A stretch of DNA of 64,000 nt from Pseudomonas vanderleydeniana. GTDB lineage: Bacteria; Pseudomonadota; Gammaproteobacteria; Pseudomonadales; Pseudomonadaceae. Positions 1-45,091 of the stretch are shown here, one piece after another (position 1 is the first letter of the stretch; each line of letters opens with the position of its first letter). A program made the position numbers and the translations under genes. A model generated the notes under the pieces. The model saw only the letters and a program-made list of their open reading frames with translations. It ran no database searches and was not told where the DNA came from. The stretch is taken from NCBI RefSeq assembly GCF_014268755.2, contig NZ_CP077093.1, positions 4,080,001 through 4,144,000 on the forward strand. Reading direction: 5' to 3'.

Positions 1-1882
1 TGTCGGAAGTGCCGCCATTGAATCCATCGGACTTCTCCAGCCGGTAATACAGGCGGATCCTGGATTCGAATCCACCCAGTTCCACATAGGGCGAGTAAGG
101 CACGGTGAACAACTCGCCTGGGTGCCCCGCATTAGCATGGTCCTGCTTGACCGTGATCAGGAAAGTTCCGCTGGCCGCTCCGATCTCGGTATCGCCCGAA
201 AAACCCTGAAGCAAACGCCACTCGATCGTGATTGTATCCTCAGCTTCTATATTGGCTCTATCCAGAATCCGAATGGGCACGCCATTGTAGGGTTGGTTCG
301 TGCAGTTGATCAGGTATTGTCCCGGTGCAAGTTCAATGAATCGGGTAAATTGCGGGTCCGCAAGATCGCCAATCTCGAAGATATTGACCTTCACCAATGT
401 TCTTGGCGACTCGGTTTCATTGTCATTGAGACCGTTATTGAGAGTGTAATAGACCTCATGCTCGCCATTTTTCACCGTGTCGATGACACTCCAGGGTACC
501 GTCAGTTCAAAGTGCCCGCGATCCAGGTCATCCTGGTTGATGGTATGGGCAGGCGAAAGAGCCTCTACTCCCCCCCAATACACCTGTACCTGATGGCCGA
601 GTTGGACATCGTCATACAGGGCGAAAGTGACCTTGGCATCCTCGTTGATATCCTCCTGCCCCAGTTCGTTGTCCTTACCCGTCGAGGAAATGACCAGGGG
701 CGGATCGAGGTCGTCGTTGATCGGCCCCGGACCACTGGGATCGTCCCCACCGCCAGCCGTGCTCAGATCCACCTCGACAGTAATGGGCGGCGTGTAGAAA
801 TACTCATCGGTTCCACGAACGATCTTGTAGCTGACCGGCGCCTGATAGGGCCCTGTGACCCCGCCAGACTTGAGCACTTCCCATGGCACATCGATCGATA
901 CGGGGAACGAGGGACGGTCGAGTGGCTTGAACAATGGCTTGCCATTGAAGTTGACCACAATGGTGTCCAAGCCGGGAATGGCGTTGTCGTAATGGTCGAT
1001 CTCCACCGTCACGCCAATCTGGGCATCCTTGAGGTCGATTGGGGCCAGCGGTACGCGAGGAGGCTGCAGGTTGGCGGGTTCCGGCTCGCTGATCACTTTC
1101 AGCGGATAGACCGTGGCGGGCTTGCTGTCATTGCCGGCTCGATCCCACAACTTGTAGGTCAGCAGCCGCTCACCATCCGGCTGGCTGCGGATCTTGGCGG
1201 CGTCGATGGTGAACGTATAGGGCTGGCCATCGCCGGGAAGATCCTCGACCTGAATCGGCTGGCCATCGAAATAGCTCCAGAAAAACTCGCAACGGTCGCC
1301 AGGCCAGGGATCGGCATAGGGCGGAATGGTGATTTCAACCCCACCATGGGTATCCAGGTACTCACCGGTGAGCACATGACCTATTTCCGGGGGCAGCTCG
1401 GCGGCGTCGGGCGTGCCCAGGGCGTTGGGATCATACAGGTCCACCGTGAATTCGACCGGCGTCGCAGTCCCGTATTGCTGCGTGAAAGTGACTACATGGT
1501 AGTGCACTTTCTTGAGGCCATCCCCTCCCAGACGGTTTTTCGGAATATTGAGCTTGAGGGGAAACTGGCCCGCCAACGGCCGGTTGATCTTGATCACCGG
1601 CTCCAGAGCAACGTTTTGAAAGTAGAGGGTCAGTGTGTCCTGCCCTGGAAGTTCATTGGTGTACCATTGGTCGATCTCGAACTGGAAACCATTGGCATTC
1701 AACTCCGCCTTGCTCAAAAGCCCTTTCTGACCATTCGGAATATCGGGCATAAGATTGCTCGGCCGCAGCGGGTCGATCTCCACTTCCACCGGCGCTCGTA
1801 TGGCCGAAGTGTTTCTGCTCGTCAGGTACTGCGTTCTCTGGCGCTCTGCCTCCAGATGTTTCTTGCTGGTTCGCATGTTCAT
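1..1882 (-). CDS. Large Ig-like repeat protein, partial (C-terminus beyond window)
   Basis: An open frame of about 627 codons runs off the left edge. It is rich in beta-strand-like segments of the kind Y-x-L-x-D-x-x-G-N (near residue 245) and VYWGG (near residue 410), which mark Ig-like modules. It is a paralogue of the gene at 2235-4226 along its whole length. By comparison with that protein only some 20-25 residues should be missing. I see no signal peptide, membrane segment or catalytic motif. The start is uncertain: in-frame ATGs lie at 1891, 1882 and 1876, and a GGAG best fits 1876. Base composition looks less GC-rich than the later genes. A LuxR-box-like palindrome lies upstream. Function is unknown; a structural or adhesive role is only inference. 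Confidence 0.8.
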   Translation of the reverse strand, partial: MNMRTSKKHLEAERQRTQYLTSRNTSAIRAPVEVEIDPLRPSNLMPDIPNGQKGLLSKAELNANGFQFEIDQWYTNELPGQDTLTLYFQNVALEPVIKINRPLAGQFPLKLNIPKNRLGGDGLKKVHYHVVTFTQQYGTATPVEFTVDLYDPNALGTPDAAELPPEIGHVLTGEYLDTHGGVEITIPPYADPWPGDRCEFFWSYFDGQPIQVEDLPGDGQPYTFTIDAAKIRSQPDGERLLTYKLWDRAGNDSKPATVYPLKVISEPEPANLQPPRVPLAPIDLKDAQIGVTVEIDHYDNAIPGLDTIVVNFNGKPLFKPLDRPSFPVSIDVPWEVLKSGGVTGPYQAPVSYKIVRGTDEYFYTPPITVEVDLSTAGGGDDPSGPGPINDDLDPPLVISSTGKDNELGQEDINEDAKVTFALYDDVQLGHQVQVYWGGVEALSPAHTINQDDLDRGHFELTVPWSVIDTVKNGEHEVYYTLNNGLNDNETESPRTLVKVNIFEIGDLADPQFTRFIELAPGQYLINCTNQPYNGVPIRILDRANIEAEDTITIEWRLLQGFSGDTEIGAASGTFLITVKQDHANAGHPGELFTVPYSPYVELGGFESRIRLYYRLEKSDGFNGGTSD

Positions 1883-2024
1883 CCACTCCATCAATGTCAC
1901 GGCGGGTCGCCCGGCCATCCAGGCGCCCTGTTCGCGCCTTCACCACCGGACGCCCCTTCGGGCAATGCCGCCGTACATCGATCAAGGTGAACCTATTAAA
2001 TCGGGAAACCGGCTCGCGCACATC

Positions 2025-2040
2025 CTGTCAGTTTTGACAG
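2025..2040 (-). promoter_or_regulatory. LuxR-box-like palindrome before the first Ig-like gene
   Basis: CTGTCAGTTTTGACAG has the CT-N12-AG form of las/rhl-type lux boxes. A minus-strand -10-like TTTAAT is centred about 35 bp downstream (1995-2000), which would place the box near -42 of the start point. The start codon is about 143 bp away. The regulator is not in the window. Confidence 0.6.
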
Positions 2041-2166
2041 GTGCGCAAACCGCAAAACTGTGCATCGCGGCAAAAGCGGGTCAAAAATGCCTTTTAAAAA
2101 GACCCGGGCATCAGGGTGCGATCCGGCTATTTCGAAACAGACTATCAACGGTTCTCAGCGGGTCGC

Positions 2167-2202
2167 CCCGCGTGGTAAAGCACTACCCGGCCACCACGCG
2201 GG
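2167..2202 (-). terminator. Inverted repeat downstream of the 663-aa Ig-like gene
   Basis: CCCGCGTGGT at 2167-2176 pairs perfectly with ACCACGCGGG at 2193-2202. It begins about 30 bp after the stop at 2235. There is no U-tract, so a role as terminator is only possible. Confidence 0.25.
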
Positions 2203-2234
2203 AACACTTCATCGCTGCTGTCGAACCAGGCGGG

Positions 2235-4226
2235 CTAGACGCCCAGGCACCGTTCGCCCGAGGGCCGGATCAGCGAAACGGCAATCATCTTTTTCTTCGA
2301 GTCGCCATAACTGCCGTCCTGCTTGCTCAGGGAGTATTGCAATACCGCCGAGCCGTTGCGTGGCGTCACCAGCCCCGGCAAGGTGATGAGTGGATTGAAC
2401 GGCAGGACGGTGATGTCGACACCGTCGCGGGCCTCCTCCGGGCTCAGTATCCGCGGGAAGCTTTCTTCCGAGCCCGGGATGGGCGCCCCTGCCCCGTTGG
2501 TGGTGCTGTAGCCTTTCCAGTAGAGGGTGACGGTGTCGCCAGGAGCAAAACGCGGGTCCGCAGGCACGTGTACCCGAATGCCTTCCCAGGGGCGCGGCAC
2601 CGTCTCGCAATTGATGGTGTTCCTGGCGTCGGCATCGACCACCACCGGCGCCAGCAGGTCCTCGATCCGGGTAATGGCCACCTTCACCAGCGTATCGCGG
2701 CTGCGCTGTCGGTTGACGCCATTGTCGGTCCAGTAATAGACCGGCAACCGCGGATGGCTGCCCACGCCCTCGACCACCGGCCAGGGTACGAACAGCTCGA
2801 GCAACTGGCCGGCGACATCACCTTGCTGGACCGTATAGGTACGGGCCAGCTCCGCGTCACTGCCCCACATCAGCTCCAGCCTTTCCCCCGGCTTGGGATT
2901 GTCGAACAGCGTCACCTCCACCTTCAGGTGTCGGTTGCTGTCGGCCGAGGTGACGATGTTGTCACCCGTCACGCCCTTGACCGTCACCGGGTCGAGGAAC
3001 CGGTTGATCGGGTCCGGCCCTTCGGGCGCGGGGCCGGCCACCGTCAGGTCGACCAGGAAGAATGATGAATCGGAGGGTTTGGGTTGCTGTGTCCCCCTCT
3101 GATACAAGTAATGGATGCGCGTGGGGACCGGCGCATCGAAGCCCCCCGAGGACACCACGGTCCAGCTGAGATCACGGGGTATCGGCCAGGTATTCACATC
3201 CGCGAGCTGGAACGAAGGCAATGCCTGGGCGTTCCAGTAAGGCATCACCCAATCGCCTGCCGACGCGCCGTCGATGAACGGAATCTTCATCTTCAGCGGC
3301 AAGCGGGCATCAGCCAGGTCGATCAGGCCATCGAGCGCCTCCTCGATCCAGGGTTTTTCCAGGTCGCCGGGAGCCGCCACGGTCAGGACCTCGATCGGCG
3401 TCGGTGCCGAGAACCCGCCGCCGTTGCCGGCACGGTCCTTCAGGCGATAGCCGGCGTAACGCCGACCGGGGCCGCTGGCACGAATGACCGCCTCGGGGAT
3501 CGTCGCCTCGATCGGTGCATTCTCATCCACCCAGTGTGCGTAAGTGATTTGCAGGGTGTGTGCCTCATCCTCATCGTCATCACTGCTCGATAGCCGTGGC
3601 GTCTTCGACCAGTAGAAGATGACCGTGTCCTCGATATGCAGGTCCGACCAGCGAGGGACGACCACTGGAGCGCCGCCATGATCGGTCAGGTACTCGTCGC
3701 TCAGTCCATCGGCCTCCACCTCATCCTCGAAACGCAGCCTCAGTCCGGCATTGCCCTGGTTGGGTGCGGTCTGGTCGATGTTCACGAACGTCGGACTCGA
3801 TTCATCCGAACCGATCAGCGGGTTGCTCACCTCATAGCGGATCACTCGAAAACCGGGGTTGGTCATGTAATGGGCAGGGATGAAACAGAAATAGGGAAAC
3901 AGCGTATTGGGATCGTAGGGCCCCACGATCTCATGATGGGGCACCACCGTTTCCGCGCCCCACTTCAGATCGATCCTTGTGGTGACTGACTGATTATGGA
4001 AGGGGTCAGTCCAGGGCCGTTCTATTCTGACGACCAACGGTTGCAGTTGCTGGCTCAAAGGGATGGTGTAGGCGGTTTCATCGGGCAACAGGGGCAAGCC
4101 GCCAGGCACCGTCGGAGAGTCCAGTTCCAGGATCCCGGACTTGGCCCTCTGGGCATCTGGCATGTCTGCCTGGGCTGCCAGCGTTGAGGCTTTTGATGTG
4201 CCTTTCTTGGACTTGGGTTTCGACAT
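2235..4226 (-). CDS. Large Ig-like repeat protein, 663 aa
   Basis: The protein starts with a Lys/Ser-rich stretch (MSKPKSKKGTSKAS) and has no hydrophobic signal sequence. It carries Ig-like modules with the landmark D-R-A-G-N near residue 264 and LYWKG near residue 590, and an acidic run (SSSDDDEDED-like) near residue 220. It aligns with the partial gene at 1-1882 throughout, including a shared VPWxVV...VYY...NG block and a shared INC motif near the C-terminus. The two are tandem paralogues. The start at 4226 is supported by GAGGA 8 nt upstream. A LuxR-box-like palindrome with a well-placed -10 lies 110 bp upstream. Function unknown. Confidence 0.85.
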   Translation of the reverse strand: MSKPKSKKGTSKASTLAAQADMPDAQRAKSGILELDSPTVPGGLPLLPDETAYTIPLSQQLQPLVVRIERPWTDPFHNQSVTTRIDLKWGAETVVPHHEIVGPYDPNTLFPYFCFIPAHYMTNPGFRVIRYEVSNPLIGSDESSPTFVNIDQTAPNQGNAGLRLRFEDEVEADGLSDEYLTDHGGAPVVVPRWSDLHIEDTVIFYWSKTPRLSSSDDDEDEAHTLQITYAHWVDENAPIEATIPEAVIRASGPGRRYAGYRLKDRAGNGGGFSAPTPIEVLTVAAPGDLEKPWIEEALDGLIDLADARLPLKMKIPFIDGASAGDWVMPYWNAQALPSFQLADVNTWPIPRDLSWTVVSSGGFDAPVPTRIHYLYQRGTQQPKPSDSSFFLVDLTVAGPAPEGPDPINRFLDPVTVKGVTGDNIVTSADSNRHLKVEVTLFDNPKPGERLELMWGSDAELARTYTVQQGDVAGQLLELFVPWPVVEGVGSHPRLPVYYWTDNGVNRQRSRDTLVKVAITRIEDLLAPVVVDADARNTINCETVPRPWEGIRVHVPADPRFAPGDTVTLYWKGYSTTNGAGAPIPGSEESFPRILSPEEARDGVDITVLPFNPLITLPGLVTPRNGSAVLQYSLSKQDGSYGDSKKKMIAVSLIRPSGERCLGV

Positions 4227-4335
4227 TTTTCATTCCTCGGCGAGTGGTCGACGGGCGCTCGCCGACTGCACCTGGGCCAAGGGCCCGGCAGCAAGACCGT
4301 GGGAACATTTAAGGAGCAAAGCCCTGGGCTGGATA

Positions 4336-4351
4336 CTGTCAGAAATGACAG
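4336..4351 (-). promoter_or_regulatory. LuxR-box-like palindrome for the leftward 663-aa gene
   Basis: CTGTCAGAAATGACAG is a perfect 6-bp inverted repeat around 4 bp. Its flanks (A before, GT after) extend the match to a lux box. A minus-strand -10-like TTAAAT at 4307-4312 is centred exactly 34 bp from the box centre, the same spacing as the two plus-strand copies at 4449 and 8328. Confidence 0.65.
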
Positions 4352-4448
4352 GTCGGGCTGCCTTACGTCCGAAAGAAAGCACCCTGCCCTCCACTTCAAC
4401 ACCGGCCAATGGCGACCTCGCACCCTGACAGTCAACCGCCCGTCGCCA

Positions 4449-4464
4449 CTGTCATTTCTGACAG
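4449..4464 (+). promoter_or_regulatory. LuxR-box-like palindrome for the 1179-aa gene
   Basis: CTGTCATTTCTGACAG is followed by a -10-like TTCAAT at 4488-4493, centred 34 bp downstream. The predicted start point near 4500 puts the box around -43. It sits back to back with the leftward box at 4336. The 333-bp divergent region between the two start codons holds nothing else I recognise. Confidence 0.65.
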
Positions 4465-4559
4465 GTTCTTTCTGCGGGTCATCGCAGTTCAATGTTCCCC
4501 ACGACTCGCTTCACGGGCTGTCGGGTCGAACTCCCTCTGCGATGACACAGGACATCGAC

Positions 4560-7500
4560 ATGAACGATCTCGCTCCAGACCTGCCCCTGCCCGACAGCGC
4601 CCCGACGCCCGATAGCATCAGCCAGCCACGCGCCTTCGACCTGTCACAACCCGAACCCCGCGAACGCCGCCCTTTCAGCGACCTGACGCTATTCATTCCC
4701 GGCATGACCACGCCGGTGCAGGGCTTCGACGGCGGCATCAACCTGGCGGCCCTCGACAACCACCGCGAGAAGGGCCTGTTGTGTCTGCTGGACCCGTACC
4801 AGGAGATGAACGAACTCGATTTCATCGAGCTGTTCTGTCGTGACACGCTGGTTCCTGTCGGTACCCATACGGTCTCCTGGACGGAAGCGGAAAAAGGTCT
4901 GCAGATCCCGTTCTACATCCCGCGCACACGGCTGCCCGATGGCTCGGTCGAGCCGGTGTTCTTCAAGGTCACCCGCGTCACCGGCGGCAATCCGGAAGAA
5001 ACACGCAGGTTCAAGCTCAAGGTCGACACCGTTCGCCCCGGCGGCCGCAACCCCGTCGCCAGCACCTTCCAGAACGAAAACCTCGCCAAACCCATTTTCC
5101 CTCGGGACCTGATCGACTTCGGCGTTGGCGAGGGCGATATCGGCACGCCGGTTCCGGTCACCATCGACTTCTATCCGGTCGAAGACCTACCCGCCAACAC
5201 TCACCGGGCCCCACGCGATCGTATCCGCCTGAGCATCGGCGGCGTCATCATCGAACACCGCGTCACCGATGGCGAGGGAGCGCCCAACAATCGCGACCCG
5301 ATCGATGTGATGGTCAACACCGGCGACTGGAAGAAAGTCGGCAGCGGCTCCCACGTCTGCGAATACGAGGTGATCGACGAGGTTGGCAACTACTCCGATG
5401 GCTGGTCGCCGGCACAGATTCTCGAGGTGCGACTCGATGATGGGGCTGAACCTCTGCTACCTGAAGCCTATGTCGAGGAGTCGAACGAAGACGACATACT
5501 TGATGCCGACAAGCTTGACGGCAAGGAGGCCACCATTGTCATCGCGGTCACCCGCGAGGACTACGTGCAGGGCGATATCCTGCGCGTCAAGGTCGCAGGG
5601 CGCACGACAGACAACATCACGGTGATCCGCTCTTATGAACAACCGGTCACCATTATTGGGCGTGCAGCCAAAGTGCCCTGGCCTTTCATCGATATCCAGC
5701 CACTGATCAATGGCCGGGCCGAGATCAGCTATGAGCGTATCCGCGCCGGCATGCCGAACCGCCGCTCCCGCAGCGTGCTCGTCGGTGTGATCGGCACGCC
5801 TGTCAGCCCTGGTCTACCGGCCCCTGTCGTGCACGATGCCCCAGGTAACATCCTGCCGCCCGACGTTCAATACCTGACCGTCGACGTACTGCCCTACCTG
5901 GGCCAGGATCATGATGACCGGGTCGTGCTGATCCTGGAGGGCACTCGTGCCAACGGCAGCAGCTACTACCGGGAACTGACTGACAGGGCCGGCAGTGACG
6001 ACCAGAAAGTGACCTTTCGCCTACTCAACGGTCCGGGTGGCGAGATCGCCGAACTCGAAGGTGGCACACTGCGGCTCTACTACCAGGTCACCAACACCGA
6101 AGGCACACGCACCTCCGACGATATCGATCTCGACGTCGGCGATCCGGTCGCCAGCCTGCCGGAGCCCTTCCTGGAAGAGGCGCCACCCCCCGACTACGTC
6201 TTCGATCCGGCGCTCTCGCCGTTCGATCTCAAGGTGCTCGTCAGAAAGCATCCCGACATCCAGGCCAATGACACCGTCACCGTGCACTTTGAAGGCACCG
6301 CACCCGGCGGAAGCTTTACCCCAGCTCCCATCAAGGTTATTGGCGGCTGGATCGGTGTGGACCTGCCGTACACCATCCCGCGCCAGTACGTCATTGCCAA
6401 CCTGGATCGCTCGGCCAGCGTCTATTACACCGTCGAACGCGAGAACAGCCGCCGGCGTCTGTCCCACGCCGTGCCACTGCGGGTCGGCAGCGCCCTGGAT
6501 CTGCCAGTGGCCTACATCTACCAGAGCACCGTCACCGGGCCGGACACTGCGACGATCAATCCCATGCAAGTCGTCAATCCACCCGTGGTCAGCATCCGGG
6601 TGAAATACGATGGCATGCAGGCCAGCGACGATATCAAGCTGTACTGGATTGGCAGGCCGGGACTGGGTACACCGGAGATTCCCGCCAAACCCGGCGCGGC
6701 CAGCGCAGACGAAGTGGATTTCACGCTGAGTGACAACCGCGCTGTCGCCGCCAACCTGGGCCACTCGCTCACGGTGTACTACGAGGTGACACGTGGGGGC
6801 AAGACAACCAAGTCTGCCGAGCTCACGGTCAAGGTGATGAACTTCGAGGAAATCCCTGGCGGCAATCCGCTCAAGGGATTGGTCAGTGTCCCTGAAGCGA
6901 CGAATGGTGTCATCGACACCGCGCGTGCCCATCGTGTCCACATCAAGGCCTGGCCCTTCAAGCGCGCAGGACAGGCGTTGTGGATCTACCTCAGAGGCAC
7001 GATTGATCTCACCCTGCGCAATGGAACCCCTGTCAGCGGCGACGAACTCAACAGAGAAATCGAACACAGCATACCCAGCGACTACCTGGGCAGTCTGGCC
7101 GACAGGAGCTCGCTGAGCGTCCAGGTGCTGGTATCACTGGATGGCAGCAACTCTCTTGACACCGCCACCCCTTTTGAAGAACCGAGCTACACCGTCAGCC
7201 GTGCGGCCGGGATCATCGCTCATATTGACGTTGGCGGTTCCCCCATGAATGTGGTCCTGCGTCCGGATGGGCTGCGGGCTTATGTCAGTAACTACTCATC
7301 CGATTCGGTGTCAGTGATCGACACGACAACCAACAGAGTCATCCAGACGATCACGGGGTTAAACAAGCCTTGGGGACTGGCTATTCACCCCAGTGGGTCA
7401 CCTCTGTATGTCAGTAATTTCGGCACGGTAGGCAGTCCAAGCTCGGTCACTGTGATCGACACGAGTACCCACTCGATTATCAGCAACATTAATGGCCCCA

Positions 7501-8099
7501 TCTCTCCACAAGGGCTGGCCCTGAATCTGGACGGTTCCACGCTGTACGTAGCCGCTTCAGGTTTCATTTATGCCTACCGATCCACCTCTCCGTACACAAG
7601 GCTCGCAAGCATAGCCATCAACCATGTGGTCGGCCTCGCTCTGAGCAATACTGGCGCACGGTTATATGCCATCAGCAACAATACTCCCGGCGCCATGTAC
7701 CTCATTGATACCCAGACCCATACATCGGTTGCCTGGTACAGGGTAATGGCAAGCAACGCTTACAGTATTGCCTGCGACCCACACCATCCTCGCGTCTATG
7801 TATCCAATCGAACGGGCAGCACGATCTCGATTGTCAACACCAATGACTACTCGGATGTAAAACCGCTGCAACTCGATAGTCCCCCGTATACGGCTGCCTT
7901 CCACCCGACCCAGAAGAAGGCATACGTTGCTCTGTGGTCGCCCTCCAACTCTCTCTGTGTCATCGACACCCAAAGCGAGCAGGTACTGAGCAACATCTCC
8001 GGTCTCAACAACCCGATGGGTGTCGCCATCAATGCCGATGGCAGCAGGGCCTATGTGACCAACAACAACAGCCACAGCGTATCGGTCGTAGCGCTCTGA
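4560..8099 (+). CDS. Ig-like scaffold protein with C-terminal YVTN beta-propeller, 1179 aa
   Basis: Residues 1 to about 880 are a string of Ig-like modules. Landmarks are ERRPFSDL near residue 37, YEVIDEVGN near 268, and repeated YW-G and VYYxV strands. Residues 883-1179 form a seven-bladed-type propeller of YVTN repeats (AHIDVGGSPMNVVLRPDG, AYVSNYSSDSVSVIDT). The scaffold is paralogous to the 9445-13500 product, which has a different C-terminus. The propeller is paralogous to the whole 8440-9384 product. Both propellers end in VVAL. The start at 4560 is chosen because AGGA lies 7 nt upstream and the leader matches those of the next two genes; an in-frame ATG at 4542 is the alternative. There is no signal peptide. 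YVTN propellers usually bind ligands or partners; the role here is unknown. Confidence 0.85.
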   Translation: MNDLAPDLPLPDSAPTPDSISQPRAFDLSQPEPRERRPFSDLTLFIPGMTTPVQGFDGGINLAALDNHREKGLLCLLDPYQEMNELDFIELFCRDTLVPVGTHTVSWTEAEKGLQIPFYIPRTRLPDGSVEPVFFKVTRVTGGNPEETRRFKLKVDTVRPGGRNPVASTFQNENLAKPIFPRDLIDFGVGEGDIGTPVPVTIDFYPVEDLPANTHRAPRDRIRLSIGGVIIEHRVTDGEGAPNNRDPIDVMVNTGDWKKVGSGSHVCEYEVIDEVGNYSDGWSPAQILEVRLDDGAEPLLPEAYVEESNEDDILDADKLDGKEATIVIAVTREDYVQGDILRVKVAGRTTDNITVIRSYEQPVTIIGRAAKVPWPFIDIQPLINGRAEISYERIRAGMPNRRSRSVLVGVIGTPVSPGLPAPVVHDAPGNILPPDVQYLTVDVLPYLGQDHDDRVVLILEGTRANGSSYYRELTDRAGSDDQKVTFRLLNGPGGEIAELEGGTLRLYYQVTNTEGTRTSDDIDLDVGDPVASLPEPFLEEAPPPDYVFDPALSPFDLKVLVRKHPDIQANDTVTVHFEGTAPGGSFTPAPIKVIGGWIGVDLPYTIPRQYVIANLDRSASVYYTVERENSRRRLSHAVPLRVGSALDLPVAYIYQSTVTGPDTATINPMQVVNPPVVSIRVKYDGMQASDDIKLYWIGRPGLGTPEIPAKPGAASADEVDFTLSDNRAVAANLGHSLTVYYEVTRGGKTTKSAELTVKVMNFEEIPGGNPLKGLVSVPEATNGVIDTARAHRVHIKAWPFKRAGQALWIYLRGTIDLTLRNGTPVSGDELNREIEHSIPSDYLGSLADRSSLSVQVLVSLDGSNSLDTATPFEEPSYTVSRAAGIIAHIDVGGSPMNVVLRPDGLRAYVSNYSSDSVSVIDTTTNRVIQTITGLNKPWGLAIHPSGSPLYVSNFGTVGSPSSVTVIDTSTHSIISNINGPISPQGLALNLDGSTLYVAASGFIYAYRSTSPYTRLASIAINHVVGLALSNTGARLYAISNNTPGAMYLIDTQTHTSVAWYRVMASNAYSIACDPHHPRVYVSNRTGSTISIVNTNDYSDVKPLQLDSPPYTAAFHPTQKKAYVALWSPSNSLCVIDTQSEQVLSNISGLNNPMGVAINADGSRAYVTNNNSHSVSVVAL

Positions 8100-8439
8100 G
8101 CGAGATTTGACAGGCCCATGCTCCAATACTCGATGCCAGTCAGCCTGACAGACCGGTATCGAGTACCTCCAAACCTTGCCCTGGCAACTTAAAGGTCGAC
8201 GGTAGTCATCCTTGGCCCTCTTCGAGGCCTTCCACCCCCGACCGCCCCGAAAGCCCTCCTCGACATGGCTTTGAAAACCGCGAGCCGTCGAGCGCCCACG
8301 GTCCTGCCCTTATACCACTCGTCGCCACTGTCATTTCTGACAGGTTCTTTCTTCCGGCGTGCGCAGTTCAATAGCCCTCACGGCTTGCCTAAGGGGTTGT
8401 CGGGTCGGTTTCCGGTTTGCGATCACACAGGATCTCGAC
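8100..8439. other. Intergenic region, duplicated promoter block
   Basis: No gene seen. From about 8321 to the start codon the sequence is a diverged copy of 4442-4559 (same palindrome, same -10 spacing, same ribosome-binding leader). TGACAG half-sites occur just after the preceding stop, at 8108-8113 and 8146-8151. Confidence 0.55.
8328..8343 (+). promoter_or_regulatory. LuxR-box-like palindrome for the lone beta-propeller gene
   Basis: This 16-bp palindrome is identical to the copy at 4449-4464. A -10-like TTCAAT at 8367-8372 is again centred 34 bp downstream. It probably drives both the propeller gene and the next gene, since the 60-bp gap at 9385-9444 has no box of its own. Confidence 0.65.
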
Positions 8440-9384
8440 ATGAACACCCTGCCGCCAGTCCCTACCGATCAGAATCACGTCCCCGACCGCGCCATCAAGA
8501 TCATTGCCCACATCGAGGTCGGCGCCAATCCTGTCGGTGTGGTCCTGCACCCCAATGGACAGCTGGCCTATGTCGCCAATGCAGGGGCCAACTCGGTTTC
8601 CGTGATCGACACGACAACCCAACAGGTCACCCGGACGATTACCGGCCTCCGTCACCCCTGGTACCTGGCGATCCACCCCGATGGATCGCACCTCTATGTC
8701 GGCAGCAACGGCCCTGGCGGCAGCTCGGAGGCGGTCTCGATCGTCGACCTGAATGATCATTCGCTGGTCGGCACCCTCGCCGATAACCAGCGCCCCCATG
8801 GCCTGGCTACCAACCTGGAAGGCTCCATTCTCTACGTGGCCTGCCAGCGCCCGGGCTTCGTGGGGGCCTACAGCACCACCGCGCCGTACCCGCAACTGGC
8901 CACCATCGAAATGGATGCGGCGGTCAACCTGGCCCTCAGTCACGACGGCACACGACTCTATGCGATCGATAACCTCAACCCCGGCCACCTGGTGGTCATC
9001 GACACGGCCAGCCATCAAGCGATCAGTCGGCACGGCATGGCAGAGCAGGCCGAGGACCTGGCCTGTGACCCGCATCGCCCCCGCGTGTACCTCTCCAACC
9101 AGACCGGTCATACGGTCTCGATCGTCGATACCCGCGACTACTCGCACAGCAGGACCCTGAACGTCGAGGCGTCCCCCCACGCGATCGCCTTCAATCCTGT
9201 CCGCGACGAGGCTTACGTCGCGCTGTACAACAACCGGCTGGCCGTCATCGACACCCGGCACGAGCAGGTCTCGGCCACTGCCCCCGGCTTCAGCGACCCG
9301 CGAGGCCTTGCCGTCACCGCGGACGGCAGCAGGGCCTACGTGAGCAACTACAACGGTCGCCACCTGTGGGTGGTTGCACTCTAA
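8440..9384 (+). CDS. Stand-alone YVTN-type beta-propeller protein, 314 aa
   Basis: After about 18 N-terminal residues the entire protein is a propeller built of YVTN-like repeats (AYVANAGANSVSVIDTTT, LYVGSNG, VYLSNQTGHTVSIVDT, AYVSNYNG). It matches the C-terminal propeller of the 1179-aa protein blade for blade, without any Ig-like scaffold. No signal peptide is visible, which is unusual because many YVTN proteins are periplasmic or extracellular. The start is set by AGGA 7 nt before ATG within a leader shared with the flanking paralogues. It is probably co-transcribed with the next gene. It may have arisen by duplication of promoter plus propeller with loss of the scaffold. Confidence 0.85.
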   Translation: MNTLPPVPTDQNHVPDRAIKIIAHIEVGANPVGVVLHPNGQLAYVANAGANSVSVIDTTTQQVTRTITGLRHPWYLAIHPDGSHLYVGSNGPGGSSEAVSIVDLNDHSLVGTLADNQRPHGLATNLEGSILYVACQRPGFVGAYSTTAPYPQLATIEMDAAVNLALSHDGTRLYAIDNLNPGHLVVIDTASHQAISRHGMAEQAEDLACDPHRPRVYLSNQTGHTVSIVDTRDYSHSRTLNVEASPHAIAFNPVRDEAYVALYNNRLAVIDTRHEQVSATAPGFSDPRGLAVTADGSRAYVSNYNGRHLWVVAL

Positions 9385-9444: not shown

Positions 9445-12400
9445 ATGAACGATCTCGTCTCCAGCCTGCGCTTTCCGGCCCCTACCTTCGAGCGTGACCC
9501 CCAGCCCGAGCGACGCCCCTTCAGCGACCTGGCCATCGAGGTCTACGGCCAGCGCCCGGTGATCGGTGCCGACCTCGGCATCAACAAGGGTGCCCTCGAT
9601 ACCTATTACCCCCACGGCCTGCTGTGCTTCCTGCTGCCCTACCTGGAGCAGGAAGAAGATGACTTCGTCGAACTGTTCTGCGGCAACGACGAGTTCCCCG
9701 TGGCGTTCACCCACGTCACTGCCTCCCAGGCCTTGAACGGCGAGCGCATCCCCCTGTTCATTCCCCATGCCCGCCTGCCCGACGGGGTGATCCAACCCGT
9801 GTTCTTTCGCCTGACCCGTGTCAACGGCGGCAACCAGGAGGAAACCCGGCGCCAAAGCCTGATGGTCGACACCATTGCTCCCGCCGGCCCCTACGATCCG
9901 GTTCCCAGCACACCCTGGCATGAAGGCATGGCCCCGCCATTGCCACCGCCGTTCATCATCGACTACGGCGTCGACCGCGACAGCGCCGAGCGTGGGGTAC
10001 CGGTGACCATCGAGCCCTACCCGCTGGACGAATCGGCCCCGCACAGCTGGCGCATGGCCGAACATGACCGCATCCGCCTGTTCATCGGCGGCGTGCTGGT
10101 CGAGCCCGTGCACCGGGTCACCTGGGATGAGGCCAACAATCGGCTCCCCCTGACCATGACCCTCTACTACGAAACCTGGCTCAAGGTCGGCGACGGCCAG
10201 AAGGTGCTCGAATACGAAGCCATCGACCAATGCGGCAACTACTCGGTCAAGTGGTCGCCGCAGACCGTGCTCAAGGTCAATATCGGCAACGACACCCGAC
10301 CCCGCCTGGCCTATGCCTACATCGACGAATCCCACCTGGGCGATGAGTTCGACACCCTCGACTACGATGAGCTGGGCGAGGACAACGACGCCACCATCGT
10401 GGTCACCCAGGTTCGCCAGGGTTATGAGCGAGGGGACGCCTTGCGGATCACCTTCGAAGGTCGTACGGCAGACAACGCCGCCGTGCGCGAGGTGATCAAC
10501 TACCCGATTCCCGACGAAGAGATTGGCCGCAACACCCGCCTGCCCCTGCGCAACGCGATCGTCCGCGAACTGGTCGGCGGCACGGCGGTGCTCAGCTACG
10601 AGCGCATTCGTAGCGGCGAGGAACCGCAGCCGTCGGAAGTGACCCGCCTGGCTATCGTCGGCAGCCTGATCAGCCGCCTGGAACGCCCCCTGGTACTGGA
10701 AGCGATCGGGGACTTTCTCGATCCCACCCTTGTGGAAGCTACCGTACAAATCACGCCCTATACCGGACAGAACCTCACGGACCGCGTCGACCTTTACCTG
10801 CTGGGCACCAAGGCCAATGACGAACTGGAATTCTGGCACTTCTTCAAGATGGCCGGCAGTGAAAAGGACCCGGTAATGTTCTACCTGCGCCATGGTCCGG
10901 ACCTGGATATCGCGGGTCTCAATGGCGGTACGCTACAACTGCACTATCAGGTCGGCAATGCCGAGGGCGTGCGTGAATCCCGGCACACCCTGCTCCAGGT
11001 CGGCGAGGCCTCCGCCACGCTGCCCGTACCGAATGTCCCCGAAGCCATTGGCGGCATACTCGATCCGGAAGCGGCGACACGCGGCGCCACTGTCGTGGTT
11101 CCCAAGACCGCCAACCTGGAACTGGACGACCGGCTCAACGTTTACTGGCGGGGCAGCAAGCCGGGGGGCAGCTTCACCTATCGCCAGTTCGACGTAACCA
11201 GCCAGTGGCTCAATACCGATATTCCCTTCCCCATCGATCGCCAATACGTGGATGCCAACCGAGGCGGCTCGGTCAGGGCCTCCTACCTCGTCGAGCGCGG
11301 CCGCAATACGGTGCTCTATTCCCATGTACGTTCACTGAGGGTCGGCGAAACGCTCGATCTGTCCCGCCCCGAGGTACTGGAGGCCAGCGCCCCCGGTGAC
11401 CTGCTCAACCCGATCAATGCCCAGAACGTGGCCACGATCAGGGTGCGTTACCTGGACATGAAGAACTCCGACAATATCCAGGTCTACTGGGAAGGCACAC
11501 CCGGTGACAGCGGCAGCCCCGTCATAGCTCCCAAGCCGGGCAACAGTACCCAGGGGTATGTCGATTTCGCGGTGACCGGCCGCACCGTCGCGGCGAACAT
11601 CGGACGGTTCGTCACCCTGCGCTACGAAGTCACCCGCGATGAACTGCCCCTACCCTCCAAACCTTTGAATCTACGCGTGCTCAGCTTCGACGAGATCCCT
11701 GGGGGTAACCCGCTGCCCCCGTTGCAGATCGAGGAAGCGACGGGAAACGCGGTCGATGTGCGGGGTAGCGTCACGTTCAGGGTCAATGCCTGGCCGTTCT
11801 ATCGTCAAGGCGACAAGGTCTGGTTGTCGCTGGAAAGCGAGAATTCGAGCGGGACGACCCTTCGCCTGGCCATCTGGACCGCCTCGGCGATCAACGGCAC
11901 CGAGTTCAACCAGAAATACCTGCGCAAGGTGATCACCAGCACACCGGCACACGCCACCTGGCTGCGGCAACTGGTCGACGGCCATCAGTTGAGAGTGGTG
12001 TTCAAGGTGGTGTTCGGAGGCGGCAGCAACGAGGGGGACGCCATCGTGTTCCCGGTACGAGCCTTCACCGTCGTCAATGTACTGGACTCAACCAGCATCA
12101 CATCGATCAAGACCGCCTCTGGCAGGGATATCGACAACGGTGACACCGTCGTCACCTCGACCATCACCCTCACCGGTACCGCCGCCGCCAACCAACGCGT
12201 CGAAATCCTTGACGAGGGTAACGACACACCCCTGGCCACCGTCACCGCCGACGGCAATGGCGAGTGGCACACGCTGGCGCTGACGGTGACGGCCAAGCCC
12301 TACACGATCACGGCTCGAGGCCTCTATGGCAGCAATCCGGAGTCGCTGGCGCGAAGCTTTACCGTCACGGCATTGGTGACACCCACCCTGACCTCGGTGA

Positions 12401-13500
12401 AGGACCCACAAGGCAACACCATCGGCGAGGGCGATACCACCACCGAGACGGTGTTCACCCTGACCGGAACCGCCAGCAAACACCAGCAGGTGAGTATTGA
12501 AGACGGTTCCGGCGCAACGGCCGAAGACCTGGGTAATGCGACCGCCGACGCCACTGGGGAATGGACCTTCACCACCCGTGACCGCCCCCTGGGTGCCCGT
12601 AGGTTCTATGCCAAGTCGCTGTACCACAGCGGCAATGTCTATTCCAACGTGCGCAATTTCACCATCAAGGTGCTGGCGGCGCCGACGATCAGGACAGTCA
12701 AGGACGCATCGGGCAAGGAGATCTACAACAACGACAACGTCGCCACCACGACCATCACGCTGACCGGTAGCGCAGTCGCCAACCAACGGGTCGAAATCCG
12801 TGACGAAGGCAGCAGCAACCCCATGGCCACCGTGACGGCCAATGGCAATGGTGACTGGTCCACGACCGCACTCGCGGTGACGACCAAGCGCTATGTCATC
12901 AGGGCCCGGGGTATCTACGGCAGCAACCCGGAGTCGGCGGCACGCACCTTCACGGTGATACCGGTGCTGAACTTCGACGAGGGAGCCGTCTCCAAGAGCG
13001 AGCGGGTCTATGTCATTCCGGGCAACCCCGACCGCTACCCCCTGGTCAACGCGGCCAACTCCTTCCAGCGGCAGGCCAGCGGTGGGCGCACGCCCTACAC
13101 CTACACCTCCAGCGACACCAGGATTGCCACGGTCGACAGCCGTGGTTCGGTGGTGGTTCGCGGTCGTGGCACGGCCACTATCCAGGTGACCGATGCCAAT
13201 GGCCAGTCCAAGTCCTACAACATCACCTGGACCCAAGTCACCCTCTGCCAGGGGCTGGGCGGCCGTAACTACAAGAATGCGGTTTCGGCGGCGCAAAACA
13301 TTGGCTACCGGCTGCCGAGCCTGGCGGAGTTGAACGGTATGAATCGCGAGTGGGGCAGCCACTGGCCAATGGGATCGAACTATTACTGGTCAACCGATGT
13401 GGCCTCGGCAACCATTCGAAAGACACTCAATGTCGCGACCGGCAGCCAGTCTTCACGATCGGAGATTCTTGAATCGCTCGTGGTTGCCATTCAGTCCTAG
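9445..13500 (+). CDS. Ig-like scaffold protein with Big repeats and lectin-like tip, 1351 aa
   Basis: Residues 1 to about 880 align with the scaffold of the 1179-aa protein (ERRPFSDL, YEAIDQCGN near 257, VYWRG and VYWEG modules, FDEIPGGNPL near 750). Then follow three bacterial Ig-like repeats of about 97 residues (near 883, 979 and 1079) and a Big_2-like module near 1175-1262 (SSDTRIATVDSRG). The C-terminal 85 residues read RLPSLAELNGM...WPMGSNYYWSTD, a C-type-lectin-like fold seen at the ends of Pseudomonas Ig-repeat proteins. The usual C-terminal cysteine appears to be absent (ends VVAIQS). No signal peptide. It starts 60 bp after the propeller gene with the same leader. Adhesion is the likely role of such tips, but the export route is unexplained. 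Confidence 0.85.
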   Translation: MNDLVSSLRFPAPTFERDPQPERRPFSDLAIEVYGQRPVIGADLGINKGALDTYYPHGLLCFLLPYLEQEEDDFVELFCGNDEFPVAFTHVTASQALNGERIPLFIPHARLPDGVIQPVFFRLTRVNGGNQEETRRQSLMVDTIAPAGPYDPVPSTPWHEGMAPPLPPPFIIDYGVDRDSAERGVPVTIEPYPLDESAPHSWRMAEHDRIRLFIGGVLVEPVHRVTWDEANNRLPLTMTLYYETWLKVGDGQKVLEYEAIDQCGNYSVKWSPQTVLKVNIGNDTRPRLAYAYIDESHLGDEFDTLDYDELGEDNDATIVVTQVRQGYERGDALRITFEGRTADNAAVREVINYPIPDEEIGRNTRLPLRNAIVRELVGGTAVLSYERIRSGEEPQPSEVTRLAIVGSLISRLERPLVLEAIGDFLDPTLVEATVQITPYTGQNLTDRVDLYLLGTKANDELEFWHFFKMAGSEKDPVMFYLRHGPDLDIAGLNGGTLQLHYQVGNAEGVRESRHTLLQVGEASATLPVPNVPEAIGGILDPEAATRGATVVVPKTANLELDDRLNVYWRGSKPGGSFTYRQFDVTSQWLNTDIPFPIDRQYVDANRGGSVRASYLVERGRNTVLYSHVRSLRVGETLDLSRPEVLEASAPGDLLNPINAQNVATIRVRYLDMKNSDNIQVYWEGTPGDSGSPVIAPKPGNSTQGYVDFAVTGRTVAANIGRFVTLRYEVTRDELPLPSKPLNLRVLSFDEIPGGNPLPPLQIEEATGNAVDVRGSVTFRVNAWPFYRQGDKVWLSLESENSSGTTLRLAIWTASAINGTEFNQKYLRKVITSTPAHATWLRQLVDGHQLRVVFKVVFGGGSNEGDAIVFPVRAFTVVNVLDSTSITSIKTASGRDIDNGDTVVTSTITLTGTAAANQRVEILDEGNDTPLATVTADGNGEWHTLALTVTAKPYTITARGLYGSNPESLARSFTVTALVTPTLTSVKDPQGNTIGEGDTTTETVFTLTGTASKHQQVSIEDGSGATAEDLGNATADATGEWTFTTRDRPLGARRFYAKSLYHSGNVYSNVRNFTIKVLAAPTIRTVKDASGKEIYNNDNVATTTITLTGSAVANQRVEIRDEGSSNPMATVTANGNGDWSTTALAVTTKRYVIRARGIYGSNPESAARTFTVIPVLNFDEGAVSKSERVYVIPGNPDRYPLVNAANSFQRQASGGRTPYTYTSSDTRIATVDSRGSVVVRGRGTATIQVTDANGQSKSYNITWTQVTLCQGLGGRNYKNAVSAAQNIGYRLPSLAELNGMNREWGSHWPMGSNYYWSTDVASATIRKTLNVATGSQSSRSEILESLVVAIQS
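12091..12963 (+). repeat. Three internal Ig-like domain repeats
   Basis: Three copies of about 290-300 bp begin near 12091, 12379 and 12679. Copies 1 and 3 are closest (both encode ITLTGxAxANQRVEI and YGSNPES), while copy 2 is more diverged (KHQQVSIED). This suggests duplication or gene conversion of non-adjacent units. Confidence 0.7.
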
Positions 13501-44267: not shown

Positions 44268-44641
44268 GCCCCGAGAGTGTTGCGGTGAACGTCATATCGC
44301 TTTCGCGGCGATGCGGCGTTCCGACCAACCCTGCCCCTAAACATCGGTACCGTATGCCGTCTCTGGGTACGACGCCAACCTGCAGGAGCAGGGCTTGCCC
44401 GCGAAGCGCTTGATCTTGCTCTTGATCTACCGGCGCCGTTCCCGGCAGGCTGGGTGGAGGGGCGAAACCACCCCATCGGCTGAACACGCAAATGGAGATG
44501 TACAGCTATCCCCCATTAAAGCCCCGCCTCCGACCAACGGTCACCAAAACTGTCATTTCTGACAGTAGTCAACCCAGGCAAAGCATCGGAAGCTGACTCC
44601 TCAGGCAGTCCCCTCACCACCTCAGCTTCCGAGAAACCGAC
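44268..44641. other. Intergenic region with REP and LuxR-box-like palindrome
   Basis: No gene seen. A single REP (GCAGGAGCAGGGCTTGCCCG) lies at 44382-44401 and the fifth palindrome at 44550-44565. Confidence 0.5.
44550..44565 (+). promoter_or_regulatory. LuxR-box-like palindrome before the orphan 149-aa gene
   Basis: It is identical over 16 bp to the copies at 4449 and 8328 (CTGTCATTTCTGACAG), 77 bp before the ATG at 44642. Unlike the other four sites I see no good -10 hexamer 34 bp downstream, so promoter geometry may differ. Confidence 0.6.
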
Positions 44642-45091
44642 ATGCCCACCACTCAAAAGACCTCTCACGACCACACCTCGCCAAACCCCCACAAAGCCAC
44701 GGGATTCATGCATGTCGAAGTCATCGCACTCAGCGGAAACAGGATACTGCTCAACATCCACCAGATTCACCGGGATATGGGAGGAACCCGTATCACGGGC
44801 AACGCCACGGAAAATGGAATCCGCTACACCGTAAGCTTCACAATGAGCGAGGAGTTCCTGCCAGCCGGGCAATACGACTTTCCCGGAGACCGGATCAGGG
44901 ACATCCACTACATGGTCGTCATCCCGGGCCAACCCGAGTGGGTTTATCCGGCAAGACGTGCCCATCTGGTCATCTATGAAAACACCCCCGCCCCTTTCAT
45001 CTCCGGTGACCTGATATTCGAAACACAAGCCGTGGGCGGTGAGGAATACCGGGTCGAAATCAGGCCTTTCGAAGTCCGAGGGAAAGATTGA
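44642..45091 (+). CDS. Orphan beta-rich protein under a LuxR-box-like site, 149 aa
   Basis: No family recognised. A polar, His-rich N-terminus of about 20 residues leads alternating hydrophobic strands (MHVEVIALSGNRILLNIHQI, YTVSFTMSEEFLPAGQYDF, HLVIYENT, EYRVEIRPFEV), suggesting a small beta-sandwich. There is no signal peptide. Base composition appears lower in GC than the neighbours. It shares its upstream palindrome with the Ig-like cluster at the left end, so it may belong to the same regulon. Confidence 0.75.
   Translation: MPTTQKTSHDHTSPNPHKATGFMHVEVIALSGNRILLNIHQIHRDMGGTRITGNATENGIRYTVSFTMSEEFLPAGQYDFPGDRIRDIHYMVVIPGQPEWVYPARRAHLVIYENTPAPFISGDLIFETQAVGGEEYRVEIRPFEVRGKD

Follow-up and report, generated by a model that had tools for sequence, protein, structure and literature searches.

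The question raised by this locus is what reads a 16-bp palindrome, CTGTCA-N4-TGACAG, that recurs in front of genes for putative immunoglobulin-like (Ig-like) and propeller proteins in Pseudomonas vanderleydeniana. The stretch analyzed, to which we refer as the window, comprises 64,000 nucleotides (bases 4080001–4144000 of the 7.03 Mb single-contig genome). A first-pass annotation, made from the letters alone, had claimed four copies of the palindrome (2025, 4336, 4449 and 8328) as boxes of the LuxR type, and had ascribed the gene cluster behind them to a regulon dependent on an N-acyl homoserine lactone (AHL) or on a LuxR solo. All four copies are exact, and a fifth exact one, at 44550, had been overlooked. 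In our opinion there is about an even chance that the palindromes are lux-type operators of a single genome-wide regulon, read by a LuxR solo that we call LuxA, with AlgR taking part at two-input promoters. The LuxR side of this proposal is supported by comparison, short of proof.

Sites and promoter geometry

Allowing up to two mismatches, the window contained 6 matches against 2.19 expected, and 6 were reached in 2 of 100 shuffles; the window by itself is therefore weak evidence and it is the genome count that decides. A scan of the whole genome, as suggested in the first-pass annotation, gave 19 exact sites, whereas the reversed pattern did not occur at all. Rather than being spread at random across coding regions, which would have spoken against a regulatory role, all 19 are intergenic according to our own codon-usage gene caller. 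Six of them fall within 17 kb, i.e., the four already annotated plus two (4071777 and 4072958) located 7–8 kb before the window start. The set of sites is thus real, but instead of being confined to the Ig-like/propeller cluster, as had been assumed, it is genome-wide. The spacer was TTTC in one orientation at 15 of the 19 sites. Over a comparison set of 199 Pseudomonas genomes (completeness of at least 95%, our own genome included) there were 1325 sites and 21 of the reversed pattern (the latter summed by hand from the table), with 0 to 35 sites per genome, 0 to 27 having the spacer TTTC and 0 to 14 the spacer GATC.

The geometry was studied in 44 TTTC sites oriented by their spacer, 15 from our genome and 29 from four relatives (G044, G070, G137 and G037; 30 loci were drawn from their 79 sites and one was dropped). 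Mean identity to TATAAT peaked 23 bp past the box, which ranked first among 107 spacings in our genome (3.60 versus an average of 1.32, z 6.0) and separately in the relatives (2.72 versus 1.42, z 4.8). No such peak appeared in the opposite orientation (1.05 versus an average of 1.29), indicating that the asymmetric spacer marks the direction of the promoter. Hexamers with at least four of six matches were found at this distance in 19 of the 44 sites (11 of our 15), when 0.9 would be expected. Directly after the box the preferred bases are T, A or T, G, any base and C, which resembles a -35 element and precedes the -10 by 17 bp. Our script placed the start codon 89–118 nt past the box at 11 of our 15 sites and at 132, 142, 172 and 198 nt in the others; the 172-nt case has an alternative start at 109 nt and in the 198-nt case the gene caller starts at 65 nt.

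Lux boxes of the las/rhl type have the form CT-N12-AG and are found near -42. The CTGTCA-N4-TGACAG dyad fits this form (ca. 16–20 bp) and, taking the hexamer at 23 bp as positions -12 to -7, its centre would fall near -43.5, a figure obtained by arithmetic from predicted transcript starts. In both respects it resembles the LasR, RhlR and QscR boxes of P. aeruginosa, from which it differs in being far stricter, with 12 fixed bases, a directional TTTC spacer and an AlgR-like site at fixed offsets. The box would therefore stand directly before the -35-like stretch of a sigma-70-type promoter, at the position from which LuxR-type activators contact RNA polymerase. Being short, perfectly inverted around 4 bases and present in many copies, the palindrome could also be a terminator, a hairpin or a mobile repeat without any regulatory role. 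However, the downstream 60-mers were distinct at all 44 sites examined and the -10 hexamer keeps a fixed distance and polarity; this fixed geometry speaks against a terminator or a mobile repeat, and we regard this reading as hardly credible.

An AlgR-like element upstream of the box

The promoter had been described as a lux-type box plus a -10 hexamer, a composition that stood, with an adjoining AlgR-like element having been overlooked that is new here. This element, CCGTTYGTCGG or its reverse complement, stands upstream of many boxes. With up to two mismatches its 11-base form was found in 17 of the 44 stretches of 52 bp directly upstream, versus 0 of 44 downstream, 3 of 44 far upstream, 1 of 44 far downstream and a mean of 1.3 (largest 5) in 100 shuffles, an enrichment that is partly circular because the pattern was composed after viewing the sites. 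Less circular are the fixed offsets and the match to a published consensus. Allowing up to three mismatches, 12 of the 44 sites have the element at offset -13 on the plus strand and 10 at -20 on the minus strand, compared to an average of 0.31 per offset, and in a few others it sits roughly a helical turn farther from the box. Its core is identical to the AlgR consensus CCGTTCGTC and to the variant CCGTTTGTC, both as published in PMC4064291. In 20 sites of the GATC type from four other genomes, the element occurred in 9 of 40 flanking stretches versus 1 of 40 far ones and 1.4 in shuffles, and seven of the nine were at plus -25 or minus -20. Of the five sites of the window, four carry it at one of the usual offsets, where all but one or two of the nine core bases match.

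The second protein at these promoters would be AlgR, a putative assignment. The name derives from the single LytTR protein of the genome, together with the AlgZ-like and HemC-like neighbours recognized by eye. When compared to solved structures, the LytTR piece gave no match, and the best 60 of the 266 matches of the full protein were mainly receiver domains, none of them named AlgR. The likeness to the AlgR sites described in the available text of PMC4064291 extends to the core, to the use of both orientations and to a single LytTR regulator that has an AlgZ-like neighbour; however, those sites are scattered (-470, -394, -45, -94, +163 and +391), whereas the ones here keep either of two set distances from a lux-type box. 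Approximately half of the promoters carry the AlgR-like site at one of these offsets, and would thus respond both to a LuxR-type receptor and to AlgZ/AlgR.

LuxA and the other LuxR proteins

As already annotated, there is no luxR or luxI gene in the window; the four Autoind_bind matches (one of them below the cut-off) and the single Autoind_synth match of the genome all lie elsewhere. The luxI gene forms a pair with a luxR gene (L034:8857-10486, at 5.20 Mb). No box with up to two mismatches was found in the 16.4 kb around this pair, so we rejected it as the regulator, and a solo becomes the likelier reader. The genes surrounding the pair score low on codon usage and were partly missed by the gene caller; this stretch has perhaps been acquired.

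The solo that we favour, LuxA, has 237 amino acids and is encoded at genome positions 1123709-1124422, flanked by fpr and a methyltransferase gene and without an adjoining luxI (the only one of the genome being that at 5.2 Mb). It has the Autoind_bind and GerE domains of Pfam, as have PpoR and the subgroup A solos, and its best match among solved structures was QscR (E 4e-43), followed by RhlR variants, LasR and SdiA. The residues W, Y, D, P, W and G, which we take to be those of the AHL pocket, are kept in LuxA in all four alignments inspected, to QscR, RhlR variants and LasR, and binding of an AHL is for this reason likely. The signal would then probably be an AHL, either the cell's own or that of a neighbour. 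In the accounts available, AHL binding and response have been reported for PpoR and PplR. The order of genes at the PpoR locus is fprB-ppoR-rlmG (PMC10134790), and the subgroup A solos occupy the same locus as LuxA (PMC8546723). LuxA is thus like PpoR of P. putida and subgroup A solos in its fpr-rlmG-type locus, its two domains and its pocket residues (PMC2703642, PMC8546723, PMC10134790, as far as their available text goes), and the protein at this locus would be the most likely LuxR reader of the box. The closest named LuxA proteins are from Pseudomonas fuscovaginae (93–95%), followed by P. gingeri and P. agarici (86%), and 12 named loci at 73–95% also bear the recognition helix that we define below as class A. 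Five of the genomes of class A (G006, G070, G077, G137 and G165) also have a LuxA paralogue (43–45%).

The evidence that connects LuxA with the box is their covariation. The eight genomes with a LuxA of at least ca. 73% identity, our own included, have 6–27 TTTC sites, whereas only three of the other 191 reach five (Fisher p 3e-12). Of the LuxA-like loci, 131 were studied; all but one (130) were syntenic, and they were classified by recognition helix. Class A, T[TA]RTVGFHMSTIM (n=8), goes with 6–27 TTTC sites and no GATC ones; class B, whose seventh residue is Y (n=20), with 4–14 GATC and 0–3 TTTC sites; among class C genomes, STV[NH]FH (n=30), only one has three or more sites; and class D, which gathers all other helices (n=72), has 1–21 sites, with mixed spacers in those genomes whose sites are listed. 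At least three sites are found in 97 of the 100 genomes of classes A, B and D, and in 1 of the 50 with neither an examined syntenic LuxA nor a full-length copy of LuxE, another LuxR protein; this exception, G085, has five sites and a LuxA-like match at 2e-32. The flanking genes vary little (fpr 76–89%, methyltransferase 79–93%, our own genome apart), with class C the most distant, while the identity of LuxA falls from ca. 73% to below 50%. A further spacer, ACTC/GAGT, recurs in five genomes of differing LuxA classes (G092, G062, G161, G158 and G102) and these sites are perhaps those of another regulator.

A perfect 6+6 palindrome does not by itself point to a LuxR protein, and the box might be bound by a protein of another family, e.g., a repressor of the TetR or GntR type. 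However, the number of sites and their spacer track the class of recognition helix in a LuxR solo, and the box lies upstream of the promoter and not over it, which suits an activator rather than a repressor; we consider such a binder improbable. The location near -43.5 and the tracking of the helix class make a putative LuxR-type operator at an activator position the best-supported reading of the palindromes. Of the original proposal, the LuxR-type operator survives, with a solo as a likelier reader than the local pair, while its restriction to one cluster does not. Binding, activation, the AHL ligand, AlgR as second protein and the choice of LuxA over other LuxR proteins are what we infer from comparing sequences.

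A more serious contender is that the box is of lux type but read by another LuxR protein: a relative of LuxE reduced to its helix-turn-helix (HTH) part, a second solo (L035, genome 3824205-3825023) or the LuxI/LuxR pair. LuxE is found in 19 of the 199 genomes, and these are richer in TTTC sites than the remaining 172 (0–7 versus 0–3, p 1e-5). The HTH-only relative, which has no sensor domain, lies in our genome at G000:C1:2108568-2108918 (L288:2069-2419) and is present in all eight class A genomes; however, it is also listed in 31 others (loci were read for eight and nine genomes, respectively) that have only 0–1 TTTC sites, and it was rejected as the sole determinant of these sites. Given this, and the lack of boxes near the LuxI/LuxR pair, we hold another LuxR protein to be an unlikely reader, if clearly less so than a protein from outside the LuxR family. 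The HTH-only relative keeps its recognition helix well and seems to be a LuxR that lost its sensor; apparently at one and the same locus some Pseudomonas have full-length LuxE (L305, L306) and others the DNA-binding part alone (L288, L289-L304). The neighbours of LuxE at the two loci detailed (G190 and G123) are by eye of the methionine-salvage type, recalling subgroup F as described in the available text of PMC8546723.

Apart from the circularity mentioned for the AlgR-like pattern, several observations weigh against our main proposal. On the flanking-protein tree each of the classes A, B and C forms one clade (support 0.85, 0.99 and 1.0), so that a small number of events, and not 130 independent ones, underlies the covariation. 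No LuxA match below 1e-30 was found in 12 genomes that nevertheless have at least three sites, and all 12 have full-length LuxE. Two sites of G190 show the AlgR-like element at minus -20 and CTCAAT or CCCAAT at 23 bp. Since these 12 genomes carry LuxE and the G190 sites share the promoter layout, LuxA is not the only possible reader: either LuxE reads the box too, or there is a third factor common to both. At two sites of G068 neither the AlgR-like element nor a -10-like hexamer at 23 bp was found. The profiling over the genus covered LuxA, LuxE and the HTH-only relative. In G074 there is a stop inside the LuxA match and yet 30 sites. At 25 of the 44 oriented sites the -10 has fewer than four of six matches, and one of them is that at 44550, where GAAGCT stands 23 bp past the box and makes a poor -10. 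In-frame stops in the LuxA match were found in four genomes altogether (G182, G087, G074 and G185; L083, L096, L101 and L238), with intact copies elsewhere; the gene may be broken in these genomes or the sequence in error.

Promoters of the window, target genes and known systems

The -10-like hexamers claimed for the first four sites are all there, each on the strand of the following gene, and the spacing is as fixed as had been stated, 23 bp past the box in three cases and one more at 2025. This last site (2025..2040, minus strand) has the spacer AAAC in promoter orientation and TTTAAT at 1995..2000 (minus), 24 bp past the box, and no AlgR-like element was found at the usual offsets. The gene behind it (2..1918, minus) runs off the window and starts at 1918, with an ATG 106 nt past the box, or at 1789, as preferred by the gene caller. 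The site at 4336..4351 (minus; TTTC in promoter orientation) has TTAAAT at 4307..4312 (minus), an AlgR-like element at 4360..4370 (minus, offset -20, three mismatches in 11, two of them in the core of nine) and, 109 nt past the box, the ATG of a gene of 663 amino acids (2235..4226, minus). On the plus strand, the site at 4449..4464 (TTTC) has the AlgR-like element CCGCCCGTC at 4436..4444 (plus, offset -13, two mismatches in nine) and TTCAAT at 4488..4493 (plus), and precedes a gene of 1179 amino acids (4560..8099, plus). The site at 8328..8343 (plus, TTTC) follows the same arrangement, with CCACTCGTC at 8315..8323 (plus, offset -13, two mismatches in nine), TTCAAT at 8367..8372 (plus) and a gene of 314 amino acids (8440..9384, plus); the next gene, of 1351 amino acids (9445..13500, plus), could be on the same transcript. 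The fifth site (44550..44565, plus, TTTC) has an AlgR-like element at 44530..44540 (minus, offset -20, one mismatch in 11) and a gene of 127 amino acids (44708..45091, plus) that resembles by eye two targets of relatives (L144 and L148).

The Ig-like and propeller labels given to these genes were only partly borne out by Pfam, which identified a C-terminal propeller in 4560-8099, a YncE-like propeller in 8440-9384 and bacterial Ig-like domains in 9445-13500, and gave no match for 2235-4163 (within the gene 2235..4226 behind the 4336 site) or for the gene left of 1789 (L025:15940-17790). Further along, at 13643-16399, the window encodes a protein of 918 amino acids with rhodanese domains and a Cys/Met-metabolism pyridoxal phosphate enzyme domain (Pfam).

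Over the genome, the genes behind oriented TTTC sites include, besides the members of this cluster, those for a thioredoxin-like protein, a DUF5122 propeller, a glycosyltransferase of family 2 and several small proteins (66–97 amino acids), and an autotransporter was found behind a site with the spacer TTCT. Behind the site at 3564762 (L028), read in the direction of its promoter, the only good open reading frame is an uncalled one of 77 amino acids, 104 nt past the box, with a signal-peptide-like start (by eye) and a lysine-rich tail. Relatives have further members of the cluster family by eye (L126, L130 and L140, without a Pfam match), components of toxin complexes (Tc) recognized by Pfam (SpvB in L129; VRP1 in L123, L315, L320 and L321; RHS in L121 and L326) and a T2SSE ATPase (L131). 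At some sites no convincing target follows, and many targets match no family; nevertheless, we infer that exported or host-interaction proteins are the common thread, and LuxA would switch on surface and secreted proteins. The main text of a published paper on the Tc clusters of P. fluorescens does not contain the terms LuxR, promoter or quorum.

When 5.39 million open papers were searched literally for the 16-mer and for five strings related to it, the two matches returned concerned human tumours and were irrelevant, and neither the box nor its LuxR/AlgR pairing was found described in the open literature searched, whose coverage leaves mostly outside the subscription journals. The nearest parallel as a genome-wide list of LuxR-type operators is that of the phz boxes of P. 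chlororaphis PA23 in the available text of PMC7048289. They differ in their loose consensus, their paired LuxI/LuxR system and their placement, as much as 500 bp away from the start codon.

We put forward tentatively, as somewhat less probable than the regulon of our genome, a promoter class extended over Pseudomonas that would combine AlgR with the solo of the PpoR locus, with helix and spacer changing together and with exported, surface or host-interaction proteins as targets. The solo, located between two slowly changing genes, would have changed its recognition helix by lineage, and the spacer would have followed, to TTTC, to GATC or to the loss of the set; the targets would include the Ig-like/propeller family and, in relatives, Tc components.

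Subgroup A solos were present in almost all the fluorescent Pseudomonas species analyzed in PMC8546723, where no direct gene targets were found for one of them, Ppu16R, according to its available text. Class A LuxA differs from PpoR and these solos in having the helix described above and TTTC operators, no operator being given for them in the portions available of that literature. What we offer here for solos whose operator is unnamed in those texts is a concrete candidate operator, a promoter geometry and a list of targets. If true, the two-input promoters would place exported proteins under both a receptor of cell-cell signals and AlgZ/AlgR, and Pseudomonas would offer a set of naturally paired receptor helices and operators in which the evolution of LuxR specificity could be followed.

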